DNA of 64,000 bases from Hoplostethus atlanticus (lineage: Eukaryota > Chordata > Actinopteri > Trachichthyiformes > Trachichthyidae). The translations under genes were made by a program, and so were the position numbers. A model generated the notes under the pieces. The model saw nothing but the letters and a program-made list of their open reading frames with translations. It was not told the origin of the DNA and ran no database searches. The DNA is taken from positions 16,594,001 through 16,658,000 of the forward strand of contig JAXDDX010000001.1 in NCBI GenBank assembly GCA_034670405.1, given 5' to 3'. Shown here piece by piece: positions 7,443 to 63,679 of the stretch. Position 1 is the stretch's first letter, and each line of letters starts with the position of its first letter.

Positions 7443-19503
<12,061 letters not shown>

Positions 19504-22500
19504 GGTCTGGGGGTCAGGAGAAAATGCCCTGAGGAATAAGGAGAAAAAAAGATAATAAGTATTATATTATTATAAGTATAGTCTCGCACACGGTGAACCC
19601 ACATCGGCTGCGTCTTGGTTGGCCATGGGTGCCCTTTGAAATCTTGAACGAAAACGAAAGTTAAACATTGGGAAAGTGCAATTGAACACTATACTGCCTA
19701 CAAATGCTGGGAGCCGTGGTAAGAGGTTTGGAGTATAGTGAACTAACAGTACAAGAGTATAGTGGATACGACCTTCGCCATCATCAAAGTATCAAATCCG
19801 CAACCAGCACATAGGATTTGCTGTATCTACTAGGATTCCACCGACATGGGTTTTTGAATACCAATACTTTTGGACTGAAGGCGCCGACAGCTTGTGCTGA
19901 TATTCAATATATTTCAATTTGACAGTTTTCATGCCACAAAGATTAAAAACATTCAGTGTTTCCCCCGCAAAACGCTCCACTGGAACAAATCCAAATGAAA
20001 TTCTTTCAGGCGGGTCAGCAGCTCTTTCAGGTAGGGTGACGCACCCCACCTATCCCATGGTGAGGGAAACTAATGGATACTTTAAAATGAAGAATACATT
20101 TACAAAAACATGACTGAACAATTGAATGAATAAATGAAACTTCATTGCAGGTTTTACAGACCTGTTGTGTGCTCAGCGAGAAATCTCCATCATATCAGCA
20201 GTGGACGCCATAACAGACCAATATCAGCCTGCGGTCTAACGCTTGTGCCGTTTAGGGTGAAAGCTAGCTTGTATGTTAGAGGAAACCGGGGCGGGTAAGA
20301 GCAGGTCACCGGGGTTATCAAGCCGGGCTCCTCCCATCGCAGATGTTTGGTTGAATTAGACCCACGGACGCCTCCAGAAGGCTCCACAGTGAGTTCTGGC
20401 GTCCCAGAACCACCGCCCTCCTCATAACCTCAACACTTGATGAGACATACACTCACTTACACCACCCCTGACATTACATGTAGCCAGTAATTTTCTACCT
20501 CACCCTCAATTTCAGCGGCGGTTGGCTAAAAGGACAGCTGACCCTTCAAGCTGACCCGCTTGAAATGATCCACTCAACAGTTCAGAAACCAAACCATAAT
20601 TGCAATAAACAGGATTGACAGTGAGGAACATCCTCAAGGTTAGGACCTGGAGTTAAGCGATAATGACTGGGAGGCCATGGGTTACGGTGCAATGTTGGCC
20701 CGACATGCATGCTGCACCACCAAGTGACAATACTGCATCATCACCCACTGCCTCAAGGTAATTATTGCTTTTATATTGGAGAGAATCACCAGCACCTGTC
20801 ATTTTAGTATGACCAGTTTACCTAAAAGGCCACCCCGATGAAATGGTTAGCTCGTCCCTTTGTTGCCTTTAGGTGGTTACGCAACTTTTCAAAAGTGTGT
20901 GCTATGCTCGTCTTCACTGATAGTTTACAAATGGAAACATTATTGCAGAGAGAGAATTAGACACTTGCAACAAATCGATCGTCCATATTTCTTGCTCATC
21001 AGATGATACATAATACCCTTTTCCCACTGAAATCATTGTTTCTGTAGTACTGTAACAGAAATAGGACAAGTTGGGCAGGTGTAGAGAGTCCATGACTGGG
21101 TTATCATGCAGGATTGGCAGTTTCTACGTGTATTTGCTGCTGATTTGGGTTTTCTTTCCCAATGGAGGACACATGCATAACAAAAATAACAGGAGGAATC
21201 TACAAAGGTGCATAACTAGTTAACAATTAACCAAAAGCTAGGTGTGTTTTAAGCACTCAAAAATGACAGTTGGAACGTTTATTTGTAATTACACACACAC
21301 ACACAAACTTGGGGCCTCGCCCTTGTAGGATGAGCCTGGCGCAGGTCATTGCTGCCCTCTGGAAACCCTGGATAAAAAGGACTACGCAGTATAATTAAAC
21401 ACTGCACACTCTCACTCAGTCACACACACACACACCGTGGCCTGAGCCGTGGTCGAGGGCTGAGGAACATCAGAGGGTATGGAAAAGAAATAAAAGAGAA
21501 AGAGAAACACACACACTGAAACCCAGTCTGAATGCAATGGAAACCAGACGTCTGAACACGCTATGAACCAGCGTTAGAAATAAGATCTGGATACCTCGTG
21601 TCATTTCCTAGAAGCTACAGTGAAGACAAAAACAACGCCAGAGCACCATGTGTCCATGTTGTTTCTGTGCTGGAAGGATACTGTCTGTTGCTAAGAGACT
21701 AACGTGTCATAACCAGCGTGTCCCTCCCATTCCGCTCATGTGACGTTATATTGTTAGTGTACTGAAAATACTATGACAATCTTTCTCATTCATTCACTCG
21801 GTCATTCATAGGTAGGGGCATCGCTCATCTTAGCTGGTAAAGTCTTTTACTTTATTCACTGGTGCATTGGTCATGGATTCATTTATTCTATTGTTCATGT
21901 CACTGTTTTTACTCATTTCATTTAACAATGCTAACCCATTAAAACACAGGTTTTGATGGAGTCCTGAGTAGACAGTGGTGTAACGCCATCAGATACCTGC
22001 CACTACCTTTAGTGTCCCTTCAAATGGCTTTGGTGAGAAATATGTACATTGCTAACAAGCCATTATAAGGAAACACAACAGCAAATATAAAAATAAACAA
22101 TGATGGAAAATAAACAACTGGAATCCAAAATATCTGAATGGATGAATGAAAAAATAAGCCTATATTGCCCCTGGAGGAATTTGCCTTTTTGCTTAGATAA
22201 GTGCATATAAGTGTATGTGCTTCAAAGCAGCAGACACTGTAATATTTGCCTGCAATTGTCACTGCCAACATAGGTGAGAGACAACATAGGTGGTTTCTGA
22301 CTATAAATACTGATGTCTAAAGTGGTTTTAATTTGGTGCACGGTTTAGTTGGGTTCAGGTAGTCGCGTGGCTGGTAAGGCACCCAAACACACTTGCAAAG
22401 GGTGCAGACAGGGAAAACATTCGTGGGTGACGTGCAAGTGATGCGTGCCACCGCTCAGCGTTCCAATGGAAACCAAAGGGTGCATATACCACATCATACT

Positions 22501-46800: not shown

Positions 46801-49800
46801 GTTCAACATTTGGTTGCATGTTCTCTGTGAATCGTCATGAGTTGATTGATTGTAGGTGTTGCTGATTAGTTTGGTTTGTCCAGCCAGGATATCAACTAGG
46901 TGTTAAAGGAATAGTTCATCCAAAATGAAAAGTCAGTCATTTTCTACTCATCCTCATGTCAGTCGAAACTCCACTAAAGTTCGTAGGACCACCAAACAGA
47001 CAGTTAGCTCCCGTTGTTCAATCACAGCCTGCTCCCAAACTCAAACTAAAATAACAGGACTATATTTATCTCCGGTGTCTCCCTTACTCAGATTATCAGC
47101 CGTCATGATCAGCAGCTCATTTAAAACGAAGAACTTTATTGACAATTGAGGCAACAGCTTGTCTTCTTGTGCAGAAAGAGATTGATCTCCTTGAACACAG
47201 CTCCAAAAAAAGCATAAAACGTCCATCAAATTTCTCCAAACAGCTTGTGTAATGAGGAAAACAGGAGCTAATGAGGATAATATTGGACCCACAGTGCAAT
47301 AGTTTGGCCACAAAACACTTGGATTATGCTGCACAAGCTGTTCGGAGAAATCTGGTGGACGTTTTACGAATTCTTTGGAGCCGTGTTCAGGGAGATCAAT
47401 CTCTTTTTGCACAAGAAGACAAGCTGTTGCCTCAAATGTCAATACAATTCTTAGTTTTAAATGAGCTGCTGATCACAGCTGATAATCTAAGGGATAAAGT
47501 AAGGGAGACACAGGAGAGATGGCTGTGATGGGATTCAGGCCAATCACAATTACAAAGGCAGCTATATAGTCAAGTTATATTAAGTTGAACATCAATTAGC
47601 AGTATATATCAGCTTTAAAAGAGTTTAAAAGAGCTTTAAAAAACAAACAGACTTCCAAAGAGGACAAGGGGAACAGTTTTGAAAATCAAGACAACGTAAG
47701 TCAAGCACAGACAAGCTGCAAGAGGAACAGCGGTTGCACATAAAGGTTCACTGATAGACACTAAACAGTATAGTACACGACAAAACTACAGCCTCAAAAA
47801 TGACCACAGGATTGAATCAACACCTCTGTGACTCTACACAGAACCAATGTAGGCAGAGCAAAGATCGGGTCAGGGATAGGACAGGGAGGGTAAAAATTAG
47901 GAACTCACTCCAGTTTTCTCAAGGTTGTCACTTCAGGCAAAATGGAGGACAACTTCTCGGCAAATTTGTCATTATACTTGCGGCTGCGAAAACTGAAGAC
48001 ATAAAGAGTGAAAATATATAAATACTCGTTCACATTTTACGAACTCATGTATACAATACATACAAGGGAGGTGGAGATGCCCGATGAGGACATGCTCCCA
48101 CACCTCATACAAGTGGATTATGCTCTCTTTGGTCAGTCTTTACCTTTGCTCTACGTACTTACCTGAGCGAGTGAATGTATCGACAGCTCGGCAGGACATC
48201 CAAACACTCTGGCTCCATTGAGCACGCGCCAAAGTCCAACCCGACGCCGATGTCACCAACTGAGCCAACCACAAAGGCCAGTGCATCGATGTCGTTCGGC
48301 AGCAGCTGGATGTTCCGCAGTTCCAGGACGGGTCTCGTACCCACAACGTCCTTGGCCAGCTGGCAGTCCTGGGTCTCCCGGACACAGTGGCAAAGCTGTA
48401 ATACCTGAGTGGATGTATGGATGGATAGACTGATAAGGAGAGATCGACAGAAAGACAGACAGAAACAACATCATATTTCAGCCGAGTCCAGTCTACCTTT
48501 GGTCCAGTCAGGGTGATGCTGCCAGACAGGTTCTTGAGCAGTCTCAGAACCAGGGCTTGTCGTGCTTTGACCAAGCTCTGAGCTGAACCCCTGGCTAACT
48601 GAAGCAGGGCCGGGGCGCACAGTGGGGAAGCCAGACCGCATACGAAACCATGAAGAGAGTCGGTAAAGACTGTCTTCAGGTCTGACTTGGTGGTCCAACG
48701 AGTCTTCAGGTTGAATCTGAGAGAGCAATGAAGGGAGAAGGTCAGTGGCTCTATATGATTCAGCTGAAAGCTCACAGCCACGTCGCTGTGGAACTCTTGC
48801 TTTCAGTGTTGCGTTATCGCAGATTGTGACAGATTGGTTATATTTCCTGGATTAGAGCTTTTATTTTTTATAACCAAACCCAACAGGATTCCTCTGGACC
48901 CGATGAGGCACATTTCAGTAACGCAAAGGAACTCGTGGGTTTGCTCAGGCTCATGAAGGAGCCGGACTTCATGGGTTGAATTCCTCACCTCTTCTTGAGC
49001 TGTGCCTCAGTAACATCCTCACTGGTCATGATTCTGAGCGCGGCCAGAAACTCCTGTACCGTCAGATGGATGAAGCAGTAGGCATGGCCAAGCGTCCCAT
49101 CCTCACGTCTCAACTCCACCTGACAGACAGGGAGAGAGGTATTCAATACATCTCTTGAGGATTATTGCTTAATTTAATTACAGAGTGACAGGATGTTTAC
49201 TGGAAATGTGGGTAAATTGCACGCACACACACACACACAACCAGGTTGTACCTGTAAGAAGAGTCCGGCCTTCGTGGAAACCTCAAGAACTTCCCGAGAA
49301 ACTTCTTGCTCCATGAAAAGGATCTTGCTTTCCTCTAGCCCTCTCCAGGCCAGCCGACTCAGCTCCCACACCACCGACCGATGCCGACTCAGATCAGGTA
49401 GACACACTGTGCTGGACGCAGGCACAGACACAGACAGAAATTGTAAATTCAACATGCATTTGAAGGTTGAAATTGTTAAAGTACACATTAAAGTGAAAAC
49501 TGTCTCAAGGCTTGAAGGTCTTTCTTTAGGGTTTCTTGTATCCTGGATCTAGCTTCCCTCTACATTCACCTGGCCAGTCTATTTGGTGGAAAGAGCAGGT
49601 GTTTGTCATGTTTTGTACACTGTGTGGCAAAAAAATATACTTTAATAATGTTCAGTGCTCTAGTGAGCTTCTACCTCTGTCTCTGTGGAGGTGCTGTGGT
49701 CTTCATCCTGTCGTCTCTGGCCCTTCCCTCTCCATCAGCTCCAGTCCCAGCGCCCCGGCTCAGAAACGCCCCGAGAACAGTGAGGTACACCTGGGTAAGG

Positions 49801-51554
49801 GAGGGGGGCACCTGGGGTGACGAGGTAGACGCACCAAGGAGCCCTTCTCCTCCTCCACTTGCCCCAACCTCTCCCCCTCCTTGTTCTCCCCTTCTTTCTT
49901 GACTCGCTCCTCCGCTGCCCTCTCCTCCTCTTCCTCCTTCGCCACTCTGTACTGCTCTCTCTCCTTCCCTCTGTTCCAGCAGCAGGTGCTCCAGACAGAC
50001 GCAGCAGATGTTGCAGAGGGCGGGGAGGGAGGACATGGCGAGGAGGTGTTGGCTAGAGAGGAGGAGATCCACTGCCTGCTTGCCAAGGGCTCTGTTTGTT
50101 GCATGACCTTTAAAGTTGAAATTGAAGTCAAGTTCAATACTATCTCACCATGGAAGTGGGATTGCATGAGTTCAGCCTAAAGTCACAAATACAACAACCT
50201 CAATACAGACGCATGAAAGTTTTCACCTTTTGCCCCAAAGTAGTTCTCAACATACTCCACGACCTCGCGGCGCTCCCACCCCAGCAGCTCCCCCGCGCTA
50301 TCCGCCACGTCTTCCAAGTCCAGGACGTCGCGTGCCCGGCAGGTGACCACCAAAGTGCACCCTGGGAGAATGCTACGACTTAACAACCCTGAGACGAGCT
50401 CCGCGACAGGCAGCGGCCTTTGCGGGTCCAACAAGTCCGTGTTCCCCTGTGTCTCTGTTCTGGTGATCTTGCTGTGAAACTCATCGTAGCCGTCCAGCAC
50501 CCAGCAGCTCTGCTCTGGGTTGGAGAGGAGGTAATCCAACACGGCCCTCTGCTCAAACACAGGGTATAATATATAGAATGAAAACATGACAGAGACTGTT
50601 CTGAATGTGTTCTGTTGGTACTTTCACATTAAACATATCAGGAAAGTCCTGCTTTGGCCAGATACTGTAGCTCTATCTCTACATACCTTCTCACTGTCGC
50701 CCCCTGCTGCAGGGAGGTAGTGTTGGAATAGCAGCTCAGACAGAGACAGAGGGTGGGACAGGAGGTTGAGCTGACGAAACTCCAGCAGGACAAAGAGGAA
50801 GGAAGAAGGGATGGGGCCCTGGATAATAGGAGGGAGGGAGGGAGAGAGATAAGGGGGTAGGAATGAAGGGGATAAAAATGAAGGAGAAGAAGAAGAATGT
50901 GAAGAGGAAAGGGAACAACAAAACAAAGAGGGAGGGAGAAAAAATAGGAAGATATTTATTTAAAATAACAATTTACGCAAGTTCTGTTTATGAGACACCA
51001 AATAAAAGATGAGACATATAAGAGTGGACTTGCCAGGCCCTGTGCCCAAAGCTGTCCCAGACAGGACATCAGCAGAGTTTTCCCTGATCCAGCCTGGCCC
51101 AACAGAACCATGACCTGTCCTGCAGAGCCTCGGAGGAAGGTCTCTAATGTCACTCTGGCCTCCATAGACCCGTAGTCTCCATCTGGCTCTGAACATTTGG
51201 GGGAAAAAGTAAAATATCAACAAGGTATGAGAGATGAGAAGAATCAGGTTGTGAGGCAACATCCCCCAACTTTCTGCACCTTCACCAGCCTAGGCTGTCG
51301 GGTCACGGTGGGGGTGGCAGGTTTTATATAAACATATATATTGGTATAGTTATCCTGTGCATTTCCCCTCTTGTATGTTTCGTGGTAACATGTTTTCTGG
51401 TATTTTAGTTTTGTTAGTATGTTGGTATAATGGACTGGCGGCATCTTATTCCTCACCCTTCCCTGCCCCACCCTTACCCCTTACTCTGAAAACCCCCATT
51501 CTTCACGTGTCACTCACACACACAAGCAAATGCCCACGCCATGCATACATGCAT

Positions 51555-51586
<32 letters not shown>

Positions 51587-54500
51587 GATTTGTGTGTTTT
51601 GATGTAGTCTCCATCTTTGCTGCTAAGCGCTCATCACTGTGGTGTTTCTGCACTGCACTTCCCAGAGATCACCTGTCAATCAATCAGTGTGTCCAGTACT
51701 GTGACGTCTTTCCTTTGTCTGTTCAGCCAAGGTGGCTATCGCTGCTCATGCTAACTACCCAGGTCTTCCTCTATTTATTCAAAACAAGGTGCTGTTGCTG
51801 GAAACATAAAAGGCATCACTTCCTGTGCACCAGAGGATTTTCCTATCTGGGAAAGACCTACCTGACGGGTGTTGGTGATAGAGAGATAGCAGCATTCAGG
51901 GCCTGCAGATGTATCCGTCATTTCCTCGTTCCCTCTACTAACCTGGTGTTCTGCTCCCCCTGTCTCCTGGCCCAGGGGTTTGGTCAGGCCTCTCCCTGGC
52001 TCTGTTCATGTTTCTCGGGCTGACCCATACATCCTCTAGTTGGACCTCCATCACCAGGCGCTCGGCCTGTCTCTTCCACCTCCTCTGCAGCAAACTCCTC
52101 ACTGCAGTGGTGTAGTGCTCCCAGTGGTCTGGTGGGCAGGGGTGGGGGTGAGGGTGGGGGGGGTCAATGGTCACTATCCAATAAGTCAGTACATCACTAA
52201 TACTGTGGATACTATTAGAATAAGCAAAGGATTTTTTTTCCTCCTCTGTAGCACTGTAGATTTGTTTTATGAAAATGTATTAATATCATAATCATAAACA
52301 TAATTTTGAGCAATGAGATCACAGATGTTTCAGTGGTTACGTTTACATACACAGAGAATTACATTCTTACTAAGGTGACTCAAGTAACCTGGTTTTGTTT
52401 GAACACATCAAACACACTCCTTTCACTTTTAAGTTTCGCCATCTCTGCAAACCCACACAGTATTACGGGTACATTTTGATGTCAACAAAAAAACATGGTG
52501 GCGAGCATTGCGTACCATTGGAATCATTGTGTTAGAAGTAACCTGAGTCAAAGAGGGAGGAGGAATATGTTGTGTTAACTGGTTTATTCCTAGCAACAGG
52601 GAGACTCAGCTGCAGGGTATCAAAGGTGCATGCAACAGCTTAATCCTAATATGATTTTAACTGGAGAATGGCCAATATCCGGGTTGCTTTGTTCATGTCA
52701 ATGTAACCACAGGGAAATAAACCCTCTGTGTCGTGCATCTGTCCTACCAATACGTGGCCGTTTGCTGGCTTGCTGTTCAGAGGGCGGCGATGGGGACTTC
52801 TCGTCCGTTAGACTGGGGCTGCTGCTTTCAAAACCATCTACAGTGCAGAAAGAGACAGAAATAACGAGGGAATACCAGAATGTAAAAAAAACAGTGGTGC
52901 TAGAAATATGAATTGTGCTGGTTTATTCCTGGCAACAGGGAGACTCAGCTGCAGGGTATCAAAGGTGCATGCAACAGCTTAACCCTAATATGATTTTAAC
53001 TGGAGAATGGACAATATCCGGGTTGCTTTGTTCATGTCAATGTAACCACAGGGAAATAAACCCTCTGTGTTGTGCATCTGTCCTACCAATACGTGGGCGT
53101 TTGCTGGCTTGCTGTTCAGAGGGCGGCAATGGGGACTTCTCGTCCGTTAGACTGGGGCTGCTGCTTTCAAAACCATCTACAGTGCAGAAAGAGACAGAAA
53201 TAACGAGGGAATACCAGAATGTAAAAAAAACAGTGGTGCTAAAAATATGAATTGTGCTGCATTTTGCATATTTTGCCACTGGCGGTACAGTTAGATCATT
53301 TTTGGTTTCACAATCATCTGCAGAGACGAAAGTAAAGCATTAAAGGAAATAAAGGGGGGATCCCAGAGTGAAACAAAAGAATAATGTTGCAAAACATTCT
53401 GATCATTGTCGGACTAATTGTGTGGCAACACTGCTCTCTTTCACTTTTTTCACTTCGGTTTGTCATCGGTATTGTCTGCTTTGAGACCTCTGGCTCAAAA
53501 CCAAATGTAGATACTATTGATATTTAACTCTTGAAAAAAGAAACATCTTTCACTAAAACTCAGCTTCCAAAGTGCAGCATTTGCTTGTTACTAAGTATGT
53601 TGGCTCAAGAGTTTTAGACGTTTATCGATGAAAAACGGTAGACAAGCATAAGGGCCATGATAGAAAGGCAGCAATTTGGCAATAGGCCTATTCCCTTCAG
53701 CAGGAATTATGACTGAATCAAGGTGTATAACATCATAAACTATGATGAACTAGGGATGTTCAATAATCCACATATGGTATGCCTGTGGTCATGGAGGAAG
53801 CATAACGTTTTTAACGTTAACTACACCACAACTTTCAGTTTCATCTTGCAGATACAAATTGCATAACTTTCGTTATTTATCAGACCTTTCAGAGGATGAA
53901 TGCTGTTCTACAAACTGGTTTTGCAGAATTAGATCATGACAAATGAGAGGAATGTGATCGCCAGTGTTGCTGTGATCTCTTTGATGAAATATATATATAT
54001 ATTTTGAATAGCACACTTTTCAAAAAGAGAATACAAAAGTGCTATATTAATAAAGTATATCTTTTAAATATTACCAACCATGCAGATCTACTTTTGAAAT
54101 GGGGCCTATTCATGTAGAGTCGATTGTCATAGACAGTATTTAATAGTAACGTCGTGTTGTGTTGCAAACAGGAAAATGCAATGCAAATACATCCAAAGCA
54201 GCACAGATAATAGCTGAGGGCGCGGTGGTAGCTAGCCTAGAGGTTAGTGAGGAGGAGGAGGAGGGTTGCCAGTTCAAACCCCTGGATCATCTAGGAAGAT
54301 CTGGGCAGGAATGCTGTCAGCCCCATTGAGGCACCCTTAAGACATGAAACCTCTAGCTGCTCAGTTTCTAAGAGCATGCATATAAAATAAAGGTTAAAAA
54401 AATCTTGTTCAATGTAAAACACATATAAATGCATCTAACGTGCACAACAAACACAAAACATCATTCTTTTCACACACACTCGAGCACATATACTCTTACA

Positions 54501-55285
54501 CATGCTGACATACACATACACACAGTTAGCTACCTGTGTCTCTGAGAGAAGCTGGTTCTCTGGCTGGTAGCATGGCATCGGCTGGACAGACAGACAGGCA
54601 GACAGACAGACAGACATGCAAGCAGATAAACAGACAGGCAGATTTATTTCTGTTTTTCTTTGCCTGTATCCTGGTATCAATATTAATATCACTCATTATT
54701 CTTTACATATTGTTAAACAACTCAAACAGTTGTTTTTTCTCTCTTGCTTTTTTGAAACTATGGCTTTAAGGCAAATAACATTTCGGTCGGCAGGCTTGTT
54801 TCTGGTGGGTCTCCACATTTAAAGACTGCAGGTTTGAACTTAACTTAAGAACTAGCCACTTAAAAGAGATTTGGGATGTACAATACAGACACGTAAACCT
54901 TCCCTCACACGTCAACACACTTTTATAGCTTTCTCTCATACTCACTGGTTGGATATCCAGCCACCGATATGAGCCTGGACTCCAGGCGCAAAGGCATGTT
55001 CTCACATAACATACACATACACTGCAGAAAGTTCCGGCAAACCGCAGCGTTCGCGGTGCTGAAGTACTCCAACATCATCGAGATGCATTCCCCCGCCGCT
55101 GGCGCCGAGCTAGTCAGGGCCGGCTGCTCGACGCGGCGCCGAGCATCGCCGGGCATCATGTCCCACAACTTCATTAGGACCGCAGGTGATTGACAGCTGA
55201 GGATGTGGAAGAGCTCGGTGGATTCCTGAGCCAAAACGGAGCACACTCCTTCCTCCTCGAGGTCAACCTCCTCCTCCTCCTCCAT
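27119..55285 (-). CDS. nlrc5: NLRC5-like NLR protein, complete 56-exon coding region
   Basis: NLRC5 is an NLR that, in mammals, enters the nucleus and activates MHC class I genes; fish orthologues are interferon-responsive. Thirteen coding exons from 55285 to 48163 encode the N-terminal fold, linker, FISNA-like segment, NACHT and winged-helix region. Forty-three LRR exons follow from 47992 to 27119. Joined, they give 5,896 nt, one base more than a multiple of three because of an extra base in exon 29110-29194. Without it the protein is about 1,964 residues (human NLRC5 is 1,866). Walker A is GQAGSGKT, Walker B is CWVLDGYDEF, and FIHLTVQEFLAAL is the usual NLR motif before the LRRs. All introns inside the LRR array are phase 2. 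The stop TAA is at 27119-27121. The name rests on the domain order, the very long LRR array and cpne2 immediately downstream. Confidence 0.93.
27833..28650. mobile_element. hAT-like non-autonomous DNA transposon in an nlrc5 intron
   Basis: The left end reads CAGGGGTCCCAAACTCAAC with GAGGGCCACATTT, and GGGCCGGA motifs recur at about 27893 and again at 28608-28635 (TGGGCCGGATCCA). These ends are widespread in fish genomes and usually attributed to hAT elements. The interior has a 111-codon minus-strand frame that resembles no transposase I recognise. Confidence 0.5.
29055..29103 (+). repeat. (TG)n beside the donor of the frame-broken LRR exon
   Basis: About 24 TG units end six bases before the exon at 29110. 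In the pre-mRNA (minus strand) this is a CA-repeat starting a few bases inside the intron after the GUAAGA donor. Confidence 0.95.
29110..29194 (-). CDS. nlrc5: nlrc5 LRR exon with one extra base (frame break)
   Basis: The exon reads SLSSNSLGDLSAARMVLVLP and then LARLTVAR, and is 85 nt between a TTCCAG acceptor and a GTAAGA donor. The other LRR exons between 29532 and 47992, and those to the left as far as 27484, are multiples of three. The end should read like LTVLE; a T inserted near 29116-29117 would explain LTVAR. As read, the next exon is shifted and reaches TGA after eight codons. Skipping this exon restores the frame. Assembly error, a null allele and regulated skipping are all possible. 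Confidence 0.8.
29532..33163 (-). CDS. nlrc5: nlrc5 regular LRR exons, block 1
   Basis: Nine exons, mostly 84 nt: 33080-33163, 32857-32940, 32677-32760, 31336-31419, 31093-31179 (87), 30852-30935, 29956-30051 (96), 29751-29834 and 29532-29615. Typical products are SLSHNSLGTEGAEFLCSVLP, SLSGHVISDRGAENLA and SLSKNLINDQSGERLLEAL, close to the RNase-inhibitor-like LRR consensus. The short strand exons of the upstream modules are absent. Three of the acceptors (30852, 29956 and 29532 exons) follow (UG)n tracts in the RNA. Confidence 0.9.
29622..29660 (+). repeat. (AC)n ahead of LRR exon 29532-29615
   Basis: About 19 AC units. In RNA this is (UG)n ending six bases from the acceptor. Confidence 0.95.
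30057..30119 (+). repeat. (AC)n ahead of LRR exon 29956-30051
   Basis: About 31 AC units. In RNA this is (UG)n that runs into UUUCCCAG, the acceptor of the exon. Confidence 0.95.
30947..31007 (+). repeat. (AC)n ahead of LRR exon 30852-30935
   Basis: About 30 AC units. In RNA this is (UG)n followed by CACCCCCACCAG at the acceptor. Confidence 0.95.
31830..31990 (+). mobile_element. LINE reverse-transcriptase C-terminal zinc-knuckle remnant
   Basis: The frame RLCKHCDLKKKTETEMHSVF then ECPKY shows a Cys-x2-Cys...His-x4-Cys knuckle, as at the C-terminus of many non-LTR retrotransposon reverse transcriptases. Only a short fragment is preserved. It lies in an nlrc5 intron on the opposite strand. 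Confidence 0.6.
33536..33900 (-). mobile_element. Tc1/mariner transposase fragment
   Basis: The minus-strand frame contains VLQQDSDPKHTSKSSQEWLK, matching the conserved QQDNDPKHTS block around the second catalytic aspartate of Tc1-like transposases. Upstream, KLWPRLGQ appears in another frame, so a frameshift is present and the copy is dead. It lies in the intron between LRR exons 34012-34059 and 33080-33163. Confidence 0.8.
34012..35953 (-). CDS. nlrc5: nlrc5 LRR module 6
   Basis: Exons 35870-35953 (84, LEPAHLNRLAGILSGCPSL), 35390-35473 (84, SSISQWPDGLQVIWNSLN), 34524-34610 (87, AAVSLVCRCLNLNRN), 34294-34353 (60, TTLYLSLIKFTGPT) and 34012-34059 (48, GDSTDPAPSMPTEKI). This copy is more diverged, and the last exon (48 nt, proline-rich) is the least certain. 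Confidence 0.78.
34618..34670 (+). repeat. (AG)n tract in nlrc5 intron
   Basis: GA-rich repeat with GACAGAAAGACAG interruption, immediately upstream of the acceptor of exon 34524-34610. In RNA it provides a pure UC pyrimidine tract. Confidence 0.9.
36434..37689 (-). CDS. nlrc5: nlrc5 LRR module 5
   Basis: Exons 37606-37689 (84, NVERLVEILEQCPQISDL), 37418-37501 (84, SLSSNLLKDEGVKYFVDSL), 36742-36831 (90, SLSNNSLTQQGALDVAST) and 36434-36499 (66, ERSLIRFEQDGSCGKAL). This is the same four-exon order as module 4. Confidence 0.87.
36510..36620 (+). repeat. (CAGACAGG)-type minisatellite in nlrc5 intron
   Basis: Imperfect tandem units of CAGCCAGACAG and CAGGCAGACAGA between LRR exons 36434-36499 and 36742-36831. 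Confidence 0.85.
38243..40382 (-). CDS. nlrc5: nlrc5 LRR module 4
   Basis: Exons 40299-40382 (84, MTKLCRRLSRCPSRLEL), 40128-40211 (84, SLSRSSLKDKAVKQLLKVL), 38493-38582 (90, MSIDGALTLVSCLIDIRRV) and 38243-38302 (60, SESFIQLDTVKAEQ). All splice sites are canonical and in phase 2. A SINE-like repeat lies in the 1.5-kb intron. Confidence 0.87.
38815..39100 (+). mobile_element. SINE-like repeat body
   Basis: Contains CCTTGAGCAAGGCACATAAC followed by CCCCAACTG and GGAGCTGCTCAGTG, a block found in many teleost interspersed repeats. No intact tRNA-like promoter was recognised. It lies in an nlrc5 intron. Confidence 0.5.
40485..42429 (-). CDS. nlrc5: nlrc5 LRR module 3
   Basis: Exons 42352-42429 (78 nt), 41228-41311 (84, SLSSNSLGNRGLRKLLDLLS), 40813-40902 (90, INMEGVLMLASALC), 40608-40655 (48, GRDQVILKFRPNE) and 40485-40514 (30, DEEQQLKRF). 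This repeats the 84-84-90-short-30 pattern of module 1. The 90-nt exon acceptor directly follows a (UG)n tract of about 35 units in the RNA. Confidence 0.85.
40910..40979 (+). repeat. (AC)n ahead of LRR exon 40813-40902
   Basis: About 35 AC units. In RNA this is (UG)n followed directly by UCACCCAG, the acceptor. Confidence 0.95.
42623..44160 (-). CDS. nlrc5: nlrc5 LRR module 2
   Basis: Exons 44077-44160 (84), 43668-43751 (84), 43229-43318 (90) and 42623-42703 (81). Products include WNKTRMKRLRQSLASC, LRSLAEFLPRL, MSVDGLVVLTALLST and PDSVSIVFSGG. The 84-nt exon at 43668 has a long (UG)n tract 12 bases ahead of its acceptor in the RNA sense. The first leucine position in some units is replaced, which is typical of the irregular NLRC5 repeats. 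Confidence 0.85.
42813..43024. mobile_element. MITE-like element, copy 1
   Basis: Shares ACTAGGCAAGAT, AAAATACAC and AAATCACAAAGTGGGGCTGC with the element at 60750-61116, and ends TGCAGCTTTAATT, an inverted version of the left terminus of that copy. It is shorter and internally different, and lies in an nlrc5 intron. Confidence 0.6.
43764..43842 (+). repeat. (AC)n ahead of LRR exon 43668-43751
   Basis: About 39 AC units. In RNA this is (UG)n ending 12 bases from the acceptor (GUUGCGCUCCCCAG). Confidence 0.95.
44592..45333 (-). CDS. nlrc5: nlrc5 LRR module 1 (rest)
   Basis: With exon 46389-46472 these form the first copy of a repeated exon module: 45250-45333 (84 nt, SLSANSLRDRGIRNIAK...), 45070-45159 (90 nt, NSLDGVNHLIRKMSS...), 44762-44812 (51 nt, GMKEIKVTFSQNSD...) and 44592-44621 (30 nt, HKNNSGPIV). 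The last two are too short for whole LRRs and appear to supply an extra strand and turn. The 30-nt exon is supported by good splice sites (TTGCAG and GTAAGA) and phase. Confidence 0.8.
46389..47992 (-). CDS. nlrc5: nlrc5 first LRR exons (84 nt each)
   Basis: Exon 47909-47992 (FRSRKYNDKFAEKLSSIL...) and exon 46389-46472 (RFSGTSLTDVGAASLASALQ...) are the first two 28-residue LRR units. Each has 84 nt, phase-2 introns on both sides and one leucine-rich repeat per exon. The 1.4-kb intron between them contains a foldback DNA element (47093-47470). Confidence 0.88.
46904..47530. mobile_element. foldback repeat with long imperfect inverted arms
   Basis: TTAAAGGAATAGTTCATCC at 46904 is a common start of a fish non-autonomous DNA element. 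About 47118-47252 and the reverse complement of about 47320-47465 are closely similar over roughly 130-140 bp (for example GAGGCAACAGCTTGTCTTCT in both), separated by a short centre. The arms make two frames that look like proteins of 85-133 codons on opposite strands, which are not genes. Confidence 0.7.
48163..49411 (-). CDS. nlrc5: nlrc5 exons linking winged helix to LRRs
   Basis: Four exons: 49252-49411 (STVCLPDLSRHRSVVWELSR...), 48989-49119 (GHAYCFIHLTVQEFLAALRI), 48497-48716 (TVFTDSLHGFVCGLASPLC...) and 48163-48404 (VLQLCHCVRETQDCQL...). FIHLTVQEFLAAL is strongly conserved in NLRs. The last exon holds the first leucine-rich elements (VLELRNIQL) and ends in phase 2, setting the frame for the whole LRR array. 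Confidence 0.9.
49675..50818 (-). CDS. nlrc5: nlrc5 NACHT core, helical domain and winged helix
   Basis: Three exons. 50687-50818 encodes GPIPSSFLFVLLEFRQLNLL. 50227-50548 encodes Walker B (CWVLDGYDEF) and TLVVTCRARDVLDL, the sensor-like region. 49675-50089 begins ALGKQAVDLLLSSQHLLAMS, continues LPALCNICCVCLEHLL, and ends VPPSLTQVYLTVLGAFL. Between the last two motifs is a low-complexity insert of roughly 55 residues rich in Gly, Glu, Ser and Arg. The acceptor of the last exon is placed at ACAGAG so that the phase-1 join gives alanine. Confidence 0.88.
51034..51188 (-). CDS. nlrc5: nlrc5 NACHT exon with Walker A, GC-type donor
   Basis: Encodes EPDGDYGSMEARVTLETFL and then GQVMVLLGQAGSGKTLL, the P-loop that binds ATP. 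The reading frame and the next exon fit only if the exon ends after GCACAGGGCCTG with the intron starting GCAAGT, a known minor class of splice donor. No GT donor nearby gives a usable frame. Confidence 0.88.
51943..52128 (-). CDS. nlrc5: nlrc5 FISNA-like exon before NACHT
   Basis: A 186-nt phase 1-1 exon. It encodes a basic helical stretch (AVRSLLQRRWKRQAERLV), then EDVWVSPRNMN and RERPDQTPGPGDR, the pre-NACHT pattern known as FISNA in fish NLRs. RRWKRQ is a second basic cluster. The donor is GTTAGTAG. Confidence 0.85.
52748..52837 (-). CDS. nlrc5: nlrc5 linker exon, duplicate copy 2
   Basis: This copy is identical in length, phase and splice sites to 53087-53176, and its product differs at one residue (serine for leucine, KSPSPPS). 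Because both copies are phase 1-1, a transcript can contain either, both or neither without a frame change. Confidence 0.75.
53087..53176 (-). CDS. nlrc5: nlrc5 linker exon, duplicate copy 1
   Basis: A 90-nt phase 1-1 exon encoding DGFESSSPSLTDEKSPLPPS followed by EQQASKRPRI. The tail ASKRPR is a basic cluster in the linker between the N-terminal domain and NACHT, where human NLRC5 carries its nuclear localisation signal; whether this one works as such is inference. It lies in a 339-bp unit repeated in tandem. Both splice sites (CACTGTAG and GTAGGACAG) match the other copy. Confidence 0.75.
53265..53400 (-). pseudogene. possible decayed third copy of the duplicated exon unit
   Basis: The minus strand has a CTGCAG acceptor at 53318 followed by ATGATTGTGAAACC, similar to ATGGTTTTGAAAGC in the two good copies. 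The intron side (GAAAGTAAAGCATTAAAGGA and beyond) also resembles theirs. The only donor-like GT in the aligned position would give 38 nt, which breaks the frame, so it is probably dead. Alignment was by eye. Confidence 0.4.
54221..54345 (+). mobile_element. tRNA-derived SINE
   Basis: GGTGGTAGCTAGCCTAGAGG resembles a tRNA A box and GTTGCCAGTTCAAACCCC a B box, followed by a body ending GAGGCACCCTTAAGAC. This is the usual architecture of teleost tRNA-headed SINEs. It lies in the nlrc5 intron just left of linker exon 54534-54581. Confidence 0.6.
54534..54581 (-). CDS. nlrc5: nlrc5 short linker exon
   Basis: A 48-nt phase 1-1 exon after a CTGTCCAG acceptor (pyrimidine tract made of CTGT repeats) and before a GTAGCTAAC donor. 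It reads TDAMLPAREPASLRDT. It is short and low in recognisable features, and is supported by phase and splice sites only. Confidence 0.6.
54946..55285 (-). CDS. nlrc5: nlrc5 first coding exon: acidic start and death-fold-like domain
   Basis: The ATG at 55285 has a good Kozak context (GACCATGG). It opens 113 codons plus one base, beginning with a run of glutamates (MEEEEEVDLEEEG) and followed by helical sequence such as VLAQESTELFHILSC and AVLMKLWDMM. This fits the atypical CARD/death-fold region of NLRC5, which is poorly conserved, so the fold is inferred from position. The donor is GTGAGTATG. The acceptor at 55302-55306 leaves a 16-nt leader in this exon that contains another ATG. Confidence 0.85.
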
Positions 55286-59570: not shown

Positions 59571-62260
59571 TTTTTTACTTATATCAGAGTGCGTCTCAGT
59601 GGGTAGTGTTCTGATCTTTAGCAGCCCAACCTCCAGCCTCTGAGAAGTGGGAAGAAACTTCAGCGAGAGAAGTACCTCTCCTACATGATCCTACGCACAC
59701 AGAGAGAGATTTGTTTTATCAGGGAAGTCTTTTAGATTCAATACAATGTACAGTCATAATACACTGAGAACATATAATACAAAATATAAGTAATAAAAAA
59801 TAAAGGCTAAGATAAGACGAAACTTTATTGATCTCCTTGATTCAGTGGAGGAAATAGACAAATAGAATATAAGCACAAAGATGGCCTGCATACATGAACA
59901 CAAATGTACGTGTGTGTGTGTGTGTGTGTGTGTGTGCACGTGAGACCCACCTTCTGAGGTGTCTGCAGATCTTCTTGTAGTTCCAGAGGGTAGGAGATCT
60001 TAAGGTTCCCCAGAGGAACCTTCACCTCGCCTAAGACCACGTGTCTGGAGAACTTATCAAAGTCCCTCACCTGAGACGCAGACAGACAGTTTAGTTATAG
60101 AGACCCACAATGCACTTCTCTATGACACCTGATTACTCTAAGGGACAGCGGAGTATTTGTTACATCTATATACCAGGACGCTGTGGCTCTGGCCATCCTT
60201 ACTGTTGGTTACTTGTTCTGGTGACGATCTAGGAATTTAACCTTTAACTGCTGCACTCAGCAATTAGCATTTAGTATTGAGTGTTAAGATCTTGAAACAA
60301 GTGAAAATATATTGATACTAGACGAGGGATCTGCCTTACTTCAAAAGACAGTGACAGACAGAGACAGTGTTTATCTACTGCAGCACCTCCATCCTGAGGG
60401 TGATGTGATGCAGCTCCTCCTCCTCTTGCAGGCTGCAGCTGAACTGGTCTCCAAACAGAGGGTTAGCGCTGTCCTTCACAATGCGCGTCTGCCACTGCTG
60501 CAGCACTGTCCAGTAACCCCGGGCTGCTTCTTCACACTAGGAGGATCACAGCAGTAATCCATCACACCTATACAGTACATGAGAAAGGCTACCAGTGGCA
60601 TTTTAGGTGAAACTTAATGACAATTTGTGCACAATGTGTTTCTGGTGAGACAAAAAAAATGACTAAAACTAAAAAAAAAGGTATTAAGTTGTTATTGTTT
60701 TTTTTTTTTTTTTTGTTTGTTTTTAAGTAATCCTACTAAATAATGTATATTAAAGCTGCACTAGGCAAGATCTTTATGTAAAAATACACTTATCATATCA
60801 GTCAAAATCACAAAGTGGGGCTGCGAGAGTGTCCCGTCCATCCTAATTCAATTCTGGTGTGGTCATGGTGGGAAATCTACCCCGCGAACAGGAAGTGACA
60901 AATTTAAATTTAAGAGAGCAAAGTACAAAACGTACTCCTAAACAGCAGAGTCCAGAGTCCAACAATAGCTGAATCTCTTCACCTGCTCCACCCCTACCAG
61001 ACACCAAGAAGAAGAAGAAGTGTATTTATTGGTTTTCAAGTCTGTAAAAGCGAAGCAGTTACCCCTTGTTGCCATTAGGGGGCGCCAACGTGCGCCGTTG
61101 CCTAGTGAAGCTTTAAATTTAGGGAAATATTTAAATTCATAATACAATTGTCAGTGTACTTTCAGTAGAATTGTAACGTGAGATGATTACAGTATCATAC
61201 TTTTTTTTAAGCCAAATTACCTCCTCATCCACAACCCCGCCCCCTTTCACTCCATCTGATCCTGCCCTCATCAGTCTTAGCCTGACAAAGGGCTGGAGGC
61301 TGCGGCTTTGGCTCTTCCCCTGCAGCCCCTCTGCCTGCAGCACGGTGACCACCAGACAGGACTGCAGCTGGTCGTAGTAGAGGGAGAAACGCAGCGATCC
61401 ATGCAACTGGTCGGGGATAGGGGGGGTGGACAAGGGCGTATTACATCCAAAGATACATACTGCATGGAAAATATACTGTAATGTGCTTAGTTTTTTCATT
61501 AATGTGATCATCTGATGACATTCAGTGTTAGAAAGATAGACACATCAGTATATCATTCTCTAGTTTTGAGACAGGTTCTGCTCATGTTACTCTAAATACA
61601 TATGAAATATGAAAAGTACCTCATACTGTATATCCTGATTTCGGCTATTTTTAAAAATAGAAATTAACAGCTGATATATTTTCTTTTGTTTATGTAACTT
61701 TTCCTTGTTGTTGCATGTAACTCCTGTTAGATGGAAAATGTGTTTTTGTATTTTACATGATGGGTTTTTGAAACGATTTCATACATTCTAGGGTCATTTA
61801 CAGGATTGTGTAAGCTTTCCAGTTAATTAAGAAAATGAGAAAAAATAAATAAATAATTGAAGTTGCAAGATTTTGAGGCGACGGCGGGAAAATAACGTCT
61901 ATTACTGTCTCGAGGCTGGCTTGCTCCTCCAGCTCCTCCCCTGCCTGGCTGGACAACGAGCCCAGAGATAGACAGCGACTCAGCCTGGAGGCCTCCATGC
62001 CTACATCCTGCACCTGCACACACACATGCACACACACACGCACACGCGCACACACACACACACCCTTTTCGTCACCTATTGCTGTAGCTCTGTAGCTCAT
62101 GTTTTCTATGAGCATCTACAGCACATGGACACAGGCAACACTGCAGCTTGGTTTTCTTTACTGTGTATAACTAGTGTCACCTCTCCCTTGTCTGAACAAA
62201 GATCCTTATTAATCCACAGATCACACACAGAGACTAGAATATCAACATCCTCCACTGGTC

Positions 62261-62310
<50 letters not shown>

Positions 62311-63413
62311 CGCCCAGTGTTTGGTTTACTGTGTGTAGGAGATTCACCTTCAGATACAATGGTGTCATGTTTCTAATGACTAGAATGTCAAGATGAGAAC
62401 TTGTTTTTTTTATTCACTTTTGTGTCTTTGGCAGTTTGTTTCCACTTGTCAAGACTGATGATCAGTATATTCTGGTAGCCTACTAGCATGTTACTAATAA
62501 TAAATAAAAAATGTTGCTAGAGGTAGCATCTATATGCCTAAAACGGTATGTGTTTACATTTGACCAGCACATTTCTTTACAGAATAGTGTTAAATTATTT
62601 TAGACATATGAGGTACTGTGGACCTGCCACAGGAAATAATGGACTGTCTGTAATAACGGCCTGTCTCTTTTGTTGAGGTAAAGTATTATTGTATGGTATT
62701 ATGGTAATGCCCTTTCAACACTTCTCCAGCTTGTATGTACTAGTAGGATATTATCTTTGATGTATTCTTATATCACAGGACTTAGAATTCACTGGCAAAA
62801 CAATCCTTAAAATAATGACCAAGGCTGACCACCTATATAGTATGCCGGGAGTGCTGCTTTGAATTCTGGGTTGTCTGATACAATGGGCTGGGCATGTAAG
62901 AGCATAAGGTCAAAAGAAATTAAGCCCACTAATCCAGTTTCAAAAAATATATATTATTATAGTCCACATCCCCTCAAACCTGGGCCTACTATTTTATCAC
63001 CACCTTCCTCCCCAGTTTTCTGCTGCCCAGTATGTCTTACCGTAGTACTTGGAGTTCCTGAGTAGTTTCCTGCTGTTGAGTACTTGCCATCAGAGCGGAG
63101 CAGGCTGCTACTATTCACTAAAGGAAGATTCAGGCACAAGTTTGTTGTTTGCTGTTGATGATTACTGTCTTCGTCAGACAGCCAATAAGCATACTCTATT
63201 CTATTCTATTCCCTAGTACTCACCAGTATCTTGTGCAGTGTGTGTAGTGTATGTCTGTGTGCAGCATCTGATGACCTGCCACAGTAGGATGCCCAGGGCC
63301 AGCAGCAGTAGAGTCACGGAGATGGCCAGCATGCAGTACTTGACGGGGTCTGAGAAGGGCATCCTCAGCACTCCAGCAGCAGCAGACAGCCACAGAGAAG
63401 CTAGGTCATCCAT
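59152..63413 (-). CDS. synaptotagmin-like membrane protein, complete eight-exon coding region
   Basis: Exons 5' to 3': 63224-63413, 63041-63117, 61906-62013, 61221-61406, 60387-60536, 59951-60070, 59579-59690 and 59152-59459. They join without a frame break into about 416 residues, the usual synaptotagmin size. The ATG at 63413 starts MDDLASLW. One hydrophobic helix follows (CMLAISVTLLLLALGILLW) with adjacent cysteines (VIRCC), typical palmitoylation-like sites. C2A begins LHGSLRFSLYYDQLQSCLVV and C2B begins VGEVLLSLKFLPTSQRLEV. The end HWSLMMRVVRQPIAKWHCL matches the synaptotagmin C-terminus. The calcium-loop aspartates are largely missing, so calcium-independent trafficking is likely. The exact paralogue could not be named. 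Confidence 0.87.
60750..61116. mobile_element. MITE-like element with 19-bp terminal inverted repeats, copy 2
   Basis: TTAAAGCTGCACTAGGCAA at 60750-60768 is inverted as TTGCCTAGTGAAGCTTTAA at 61098-61116, with one mismatch. There is no coding capacity. It sits in the intron between syt-like exons 61221-61406 and 60387-60536. The internal AAATCACAAAGTGGGGCTGC ties it to the copy at 42.8 kb. Confidence 0.75.
62263..62309 (+). repeat. (AC)n in the syt-like intron
   Basis: About 23 AC units between exons 61906-62013 and 63041-63117. Shorter (TG)n/(AC)n tracts also flank exons at 59545, 59911 and 62021-62062. Confidence 0.95.
63224..63413 (-). CDS. syt-like exon 1: luminal tail and transmembrane helix
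   Basis: Encodes 63 residues plus one base. A short N-terminus is followed by the hydrophobic helix and a juxtamembrane IRCCTQTYTTHTAQDT. A valine codon (GTG) just upstream is in frame, but the ATG at 63413 is the first methionine. The acceptor at 63457 leaves a 43-nt 5' UTR stretch in this exon. Confidence 0.85.
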
Positions 63414-63679
63414 CTGCACCACCACGACTGTCTACCTCCGAGGGTCCTACATACCTCTGCAACACAGGAACACAGACCATATAAGGAGGCTGTCAATAAT
63501 GGAGAGGCAAAAACAATTAAATAAATGTTTCAATTTCAATTACCATTAAGAGATCATGATTTGTACACTAACATTTACACTACACTAATAAAACTAACAA
63601 TTTCGGATGTACAAATATTTTTGTGAATCTCCCTCTAATTGGGTGGATACTTTTGAGACTTTTTGCGTCTGAAATTTAC

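Follow-up and report, generated by a model that had tools for sequence, protein, structure and literature searches.

Analysis of a 64,000-nucleotide stretch of the Hoplostethus atlanticus genome (the window; positions 16,594,001–16,658,000 of contig JAXDDX010000001.1, in an assembly of 632.8 Mb and 1161 contigs) reveals a head-to-tail duplication at window positions 52579–53256, with a unit of 339 bp, within nlrc5 on the minus strand. Each unit holds one 90-nt exon (K1 and K2, in transcript order) that lies in the linker upstream of the NACHT domain and whose peptide carries the basic motif KRPR. The joint reading that we favor, at a probability of roughly 0.55, is that of a young, near-neutral tandem duplication of a symmetric nlrc5 linker exon, in which KRPR would act as a nuclear import signal and the second copy would be largely redundant. 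The features on which this reading is built are collected in Table I.

Table I. Position of the duplicated units, exons and repeats in the window
Feature	Positions	Strand	Evidence
Stretch with 20 candidate 84-nt LRR exons, one common phase	27484–47992	-	Exon-sized scan
Open frame with NACHT match; CWVLDGYDEF read by eye as Walker B	50183–50623	-	Pfam
NACHT exon (exon 4) with Walker A GQAGSGKT, proposed GC donor	51034–51188	-	Model
Next linker exon (exon 3), contains QRRWKRQ	51943–52128	-	Model
Interspersed repeat with 24-nt inverted ends (52333–52356, 52687–52710)	52331–52712	.	Genome matches
Duplication unit nearer NACHT, second in transcript order, 339 bp	52579–52917	-	Tandem Repeats Finder and direct comparison
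Exon K2, 90 nt, phase 1-1, encodes ...DEKSPSPPSEQQASKRPRI	52748–52837	-	Open frame and splice consensus
Duplication unit nearer N-terminal exon, first in transcript order, 339 bp	52918–53256	-	Tandem Repeats Finder and direct comparison
Shortened copy of the interspersed repeat in the K1–K2 intron	52918–53051	.	Sequence comparison
Exon K1, 90 nt, phase 1-1, encodes ...DEKSPLPPSEQQASKRPRI	53087–53176	-	Open frame and splice consensus
Older partial third copy: acceptor-side intron and first 15 nt of exon; exon would begin at 53317	53303–53409	-	Alignment
nlrc5 first coding exon, ATG to phase-1 donor, atypical CARD	54946–55285	-	Pfam and model

A young duplication of a symmetric exon

Direct comparison of the two units gives 7 substitutions and no indels, that is, 98% identity through the introns and an inter-unit distance of 0.021, and Tandem Repeats Finder describes the same region as 52579–53259 with a period of 339, 2.0 copies, 97% matches and 0% indels. 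The two near-identical adjacent units proposed in an earlier note on this DNA, introns included, are thus borne out; the ends given there (52581 and 53258) lie one to two bases off, and three bases (CTG) common to both sides of the junction blur the unit ends in any case. When the whole window was searched for direct repeats of at least 90 bp, the 339-bp pair and two simple-sequence families were returned. At the substitution rates commonly assumed for fish, the distance of 0.021 corresponds very roughly to one to a few million years, which is the age that we assign to the duplication unless conversion has reset the distance, and the term "recent" used in the earlier note is supported. Two of the seven differences fall in the 90-nt exon, one changing S to L and the other being silent in an arginine codon of KRPR. 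Constraint on the K exon is not visible, because divergence is equal in exon (2/90) and intron (5/249; Fisher p = 1.0).

Both K1 and K2 stand in the minus-strand context ...CTGTAG/exon/GTAGGA with AG and GT ends and a length of 0 mod 3, and their peptide reads xGFESSSPSLTDEKSP(L/S)PPSEQQASKRPRI. The intron between them measures 249 bp and the one after K2 619 bp. Exon boundaries were taken from the splice consensus and the modelled part comprises the N-terminal exons up to NACHT. Phase 1 is found at the end of exon 1 and at the start of exons 3 and 4; since all four modelled joins are thus of phase 1, a transcript could include zero, one or two K copies without frame change, and the corresponding modelled forms (227, 257, and 287 residues) are all open. 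The exon coordinates, intact splice dinucleotides and phases of the earlier note, as well as its placement of a frame-neutral exon in the linker, therefore hold.

Identity of the host gene

The host gene of the duplicated exon is nlrc5, as the earlier note had stated. The assignment follows from the atypical CARD, the NACHT domain, the array of 84-nt exons and a copine neighbor taken together. The match to the atypical CARD (PF18461) is marginal and partial (28.8 bits for a cut-off of 28.6, profile positions 45–95 of 95), and it is the single match in the genome; that to NACHT (PF05729) has an E value of 1.7e-12. An exon-sized scan was adopted for the LRRs because their exons are split by introns. 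Its counts are limited to candidates whose length is exactly 84 nt, those of 81 and 87 nt being excluded, and its splice matrices are approximations; elsewhere in the window it finds one such candidate on the minus and two on the plus strand. Pfam, applied to six of the LRR-exon peptides, matched one to an LRR model below cut-off and five to nothing; an LRR exon on its own is too short for Pfam. A strict LRR pattern run on whole frames gave one minus-strand match outside the gene and one on the plus strand, shuffles giving 0 to 3 (n = 20).

Two joined exons downstream of nlrc5 on the same strand have as their best match in the PDB BONZAI 1 (E 1.4e-21), which we take to be a plant copine, and human NLRC5 presumably neighbors CPNE2. 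When run singly against Pfam, one of these exons matched C2, whereas the other had no match. For the N-terminal part, the PDB yielded no significant match and no NLRC5 chain (best E values 0.017 and 0.032, trypsin inhibitors for the most part); the one NLR recovered from the PDB was NAIP, with E 0.55 over Walker A. NCBIfam returned nothing for three proteins.

Several further observations concern the gene and its surroundings. The donor of the Walker A exon seems to be GC (CTG/GCAAGT), which would make the following intron of the GC-AG type. The LRR part contains at 47106–47475 a foldback element, an inverted repeat with 144-nt arms that are 90% complementary and 82 nt apart. Exons of the copine gene extend over 11653–19566 (minus strand), downstream of nlrc5 and on its strand, and upstream of nlrc5, at 59828–63431 (minus strand), there are frames that look by eye like a C2-domain gene with a membrane segment, presumably synaptotagmin-like, the C2 match of the one frame tested being under cut-off. 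At the level of the genome, at least 150 matches to the FISNA domain were counted (150 of 197 candidates being scored), corresponding to a large fish-type NLR family. A cod-like absence of MHC class II was considered and rejected because MHC II beta matches the genome four times above the cut-off, one match having an internal stop. The FISNA and MHC II beta matches are together in keeping with a teleost.

KRPR as a candidate import signal

The classical monopartite import signal has the consensus K-K/R-x-K/R, and a bipartite signal consists of two basic clusters about 10–12 residues apart. Within the 287 modelled residues the pattern K[KR]x[KR] is found in the two copies of KRPR only, and the chance of finding it in 30 residues drawn from the modelled region is 0.007. 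The motif does not extend to a bipartite signal: no basic pair lies 10–12 residues before KRPR, and 18 residues separate KR from the basic patch RRWKR of the next exon. The distance to Walker A is 94 residues for the inner KRPR, in both the one- and the two-copy forms, 124 for the outer KRPR and 73 for RRWKR. The import signal of human NLRC5 is described as bipartite (K121 R122 and R132 R133 K134; PMC3848420, PMC7922096), with Walker A at residues 228–235 (PMC7922096), and from the figures given in the latter source the human clusters lie 94 and 106 residues before Walker A, residue 134 being 94 away from residue 228. The coincidence at 94 residues is suggestive only, because three distances (73, 94, and 124) are compared with two human clusters (94 and 106). 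For zebrafish NLRC5 a review reports a monopartite signal and a protein both nuclear and cytoplasmic (PMC12436146). The import-signal region seems free to change between vertebrates, since the mammalian NLRC5 signal is reported to be mostly absent in birds (PMC8105094). Judged from its sequence, KRPR appears to be a good candidate import signal, plausible if unproven. A second import signal would probably add little, and two KRPR motifs are to be expected without selection because the copy is so young.

A less likely alternative (the confidences that we attach to the alternatives overlap and do not sum to one) is that K is a real linker exon in which KRPR is not an import signal, import proceeding via RRWKR or another route, so that the doubled segment would do no more than extend a disordered linker. 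All modelled forms, the zero-copy form included, contain RRWKR, a dense basic cluster that may serve import by itself; the S/P-rich K segment, moreover, resembles by eye a flexible linker. On the other hand, it is KRPR, and not RRWKR, that fits the K-K/R-x-K/R pattern and that holds the human spacing to Walker A.

Predicted use of the K splice sites

Splice sites were scored at the AG and GT positions of 51.0–55.4 kb with approximate matrices. With a score of 4.7 the K donor (TTG/GTAGGA) falls short of the donors of exon 1 (6.9) and exon 3 (8.4), and about 7% of 290 nearby GT sites do at least as well. The K acceptor reaches 8.3, compared to 6.5 for exon 3 and 7.2 for exon 4, a value attained by 5 of 297 AG sites, both K acceptors among them. 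By these scores the K exon would have usable splice sites, with a mediocre donor of a kind that could be skipped.

It is unlikely, in our view, that the K copies are cassette or relic exons spliced rarely or never, the duplication then being without consequence for the protein. Such a case would be in line with the mediocre donor, with skipping that stays in frame, with the equal divergence of exon and intron between the units, and with the older third copy (see below) that has no good donor of its own. In the same direction, the splice variants of zebrafish and human NLRC5 have, according to a review, a common 5' region and differ in the LRRs (PMC5536018), so that copy variation of the K exon is without precedent in the variants described there. 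Against it, both K1 and K2 are open with intact splice dinucleotides and matching phases, and their acceptors score above those of exons 3 and 4. A regulatory role, in which splicing of zero, one or two copies of an import-signal exon sets the nuclear dose of the MHC transactivator at a locus whose K region was copied at least two times, we regard as improbable.

Breakpoints of the duplication

The left breakpoint of the duplication falls inside an interspersed repeat of about 380 bp, of which the copy between K1 and K2 keeps the right part only. Elsewhere in the genome this repeat has at least 43 matches (40 of 331 candidates scored), 67–85% identical among the matches listed. A long stretch common to both breakpoints was rejected, as its score is reached by 172 of 1000 shuffles; CTG alone is shared at the junction, which is not remarkable. 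An origin of the K exon itself from a mobile element was likewise rejected: exon plus acceptor flank matches the genome only at K1 and K2 (two of two candidates scored), and the K exon is thus not a member of a dispersed repeat family visible to this search. An assembly artefact, with two haplotypes of one unit joined in tandem, is very improbable in view of the clean 339-bp unit, the precise junction inside the repeat, the spread of the seven differences over the unit, the absence from the assembly of a second place holding the K exon, and the location of the duplication in a contig of 19.5 Mb.

An older third copy

Next to the young pair lies an older partial copy, in which 74 of 94 ungapped positions are identical to 53162–53255. 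Its local score of 61 is reached by none of 1000 shuffles (mean 19.3, maximum 36), the stretch having been chosen after being seen, and no other minus-strand stretch of 47.0–55.4 kb scores above 60 in the same scan. The decayed third copy of the earlier note is therefore real, but "decayed" needs a qualifier, given that its acceptor is the top one of the 297 AG sites in 51.0–55.4 kb with this approximate matrix. A good donor of its own is lacking among the seven GT sites before the K1 acceptor, the best scoring 2.3 compared to 4.7 for the K1 donor (GC sites were listed, not scored). As this older partial copy adjoins the young 339-bp pair, the K exon region was duplicated at least two times, at different times. 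Its acceptor, if joined to the K1 donor, would delimit a 231-nt alternative exon that is in frame (231 is a multiple of 3, and the minus-strand frame is open from 53317 to 53087, an open stretch in that frame having a chance of about 0.037, the frequency in 5000 shuffles multiplied by one third) and has the best acceptor nearby, but we give hardly any credit to this minor alternative, because the added T-rich sequence would be translated into a run of hydrophobic residues (STIHIFSTTVFFTFWYSLVISVSF), unusual in a linker, and the 231 nt include K1's own acceptor.

Proposed explanation

Taken as a whole, the observation made in the earlier note is confirmed, and its interpretation is supported in part. 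We return to the near-neutral duplication of a linker exon as the best explanation. A young 339-bp tandem event would have copied one phase 1-1 linker exon, the intron sequence flanking it and the terminal part of an interspersed repeat. The K exon probably encodes a flexible Ser/Pro-rich stretch ending in the monopartite import signal KRPR, upstream of NACHT, and a transcript could hold none, one or two K copies with the frame kept. A single signal most likely suffices, with the second largely redundant, in which case the duplication would persist as near-neutral variation. The assembly itself shows the duplication, the open frames, the splice dinucleotides and the identity of the gene, whereas we infer that transcripts include the K exon, that importin alpha binds to KRPR and that a protein with two copies would act as one with a single copy does. 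Counted against this explanation are the mediocre donor, the equal exon and intron divergence, the presence of RRWKR in the next exon and a distance match that is only suggestive. Should KRPR prove to be the signal for nuclear import of fish NLRC5, that whole signal would sit on one skippable, frame-neutral exon, and a link from splicing to nuclear entry of an MHC regulator would then be directly testable.

Comparison with known systems

As in human NLRC5, to the extent described in the sources cited above, a basic motif lies here between the CARD core and Walker A, and the inner KRPR shares the 94-residue spacing of R-R-K134. Unlike the human signal, KRPR forms one cluster only, with no KR pair 10–12 residues upstream, and it is carried by a separate exon that is present twice. 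With zebrafish NLRC5 it has in common the monopartite type of motif in a fish NLRC5; the likeness is one of motif type, not of site or sequence, and the zebrafish account in PMC12436146 mentions, in the part available, no duplication. No published report of this nlrc5 exon duplication was found among the titles and abstract openings of one literature collection. The duplication is an ordinary kind of event, belonging to the well-known class of tandem exon duplications, and may be neutral. As in the tandem exon duplications outlined in PMC9013439, a homologous exon is found adjacent together with flanking intron, and the reading frame is kept, whereas the present case, known from the assembly, is distinguished from such duplications in general by its very young age, with 98% identity extending through the introns.
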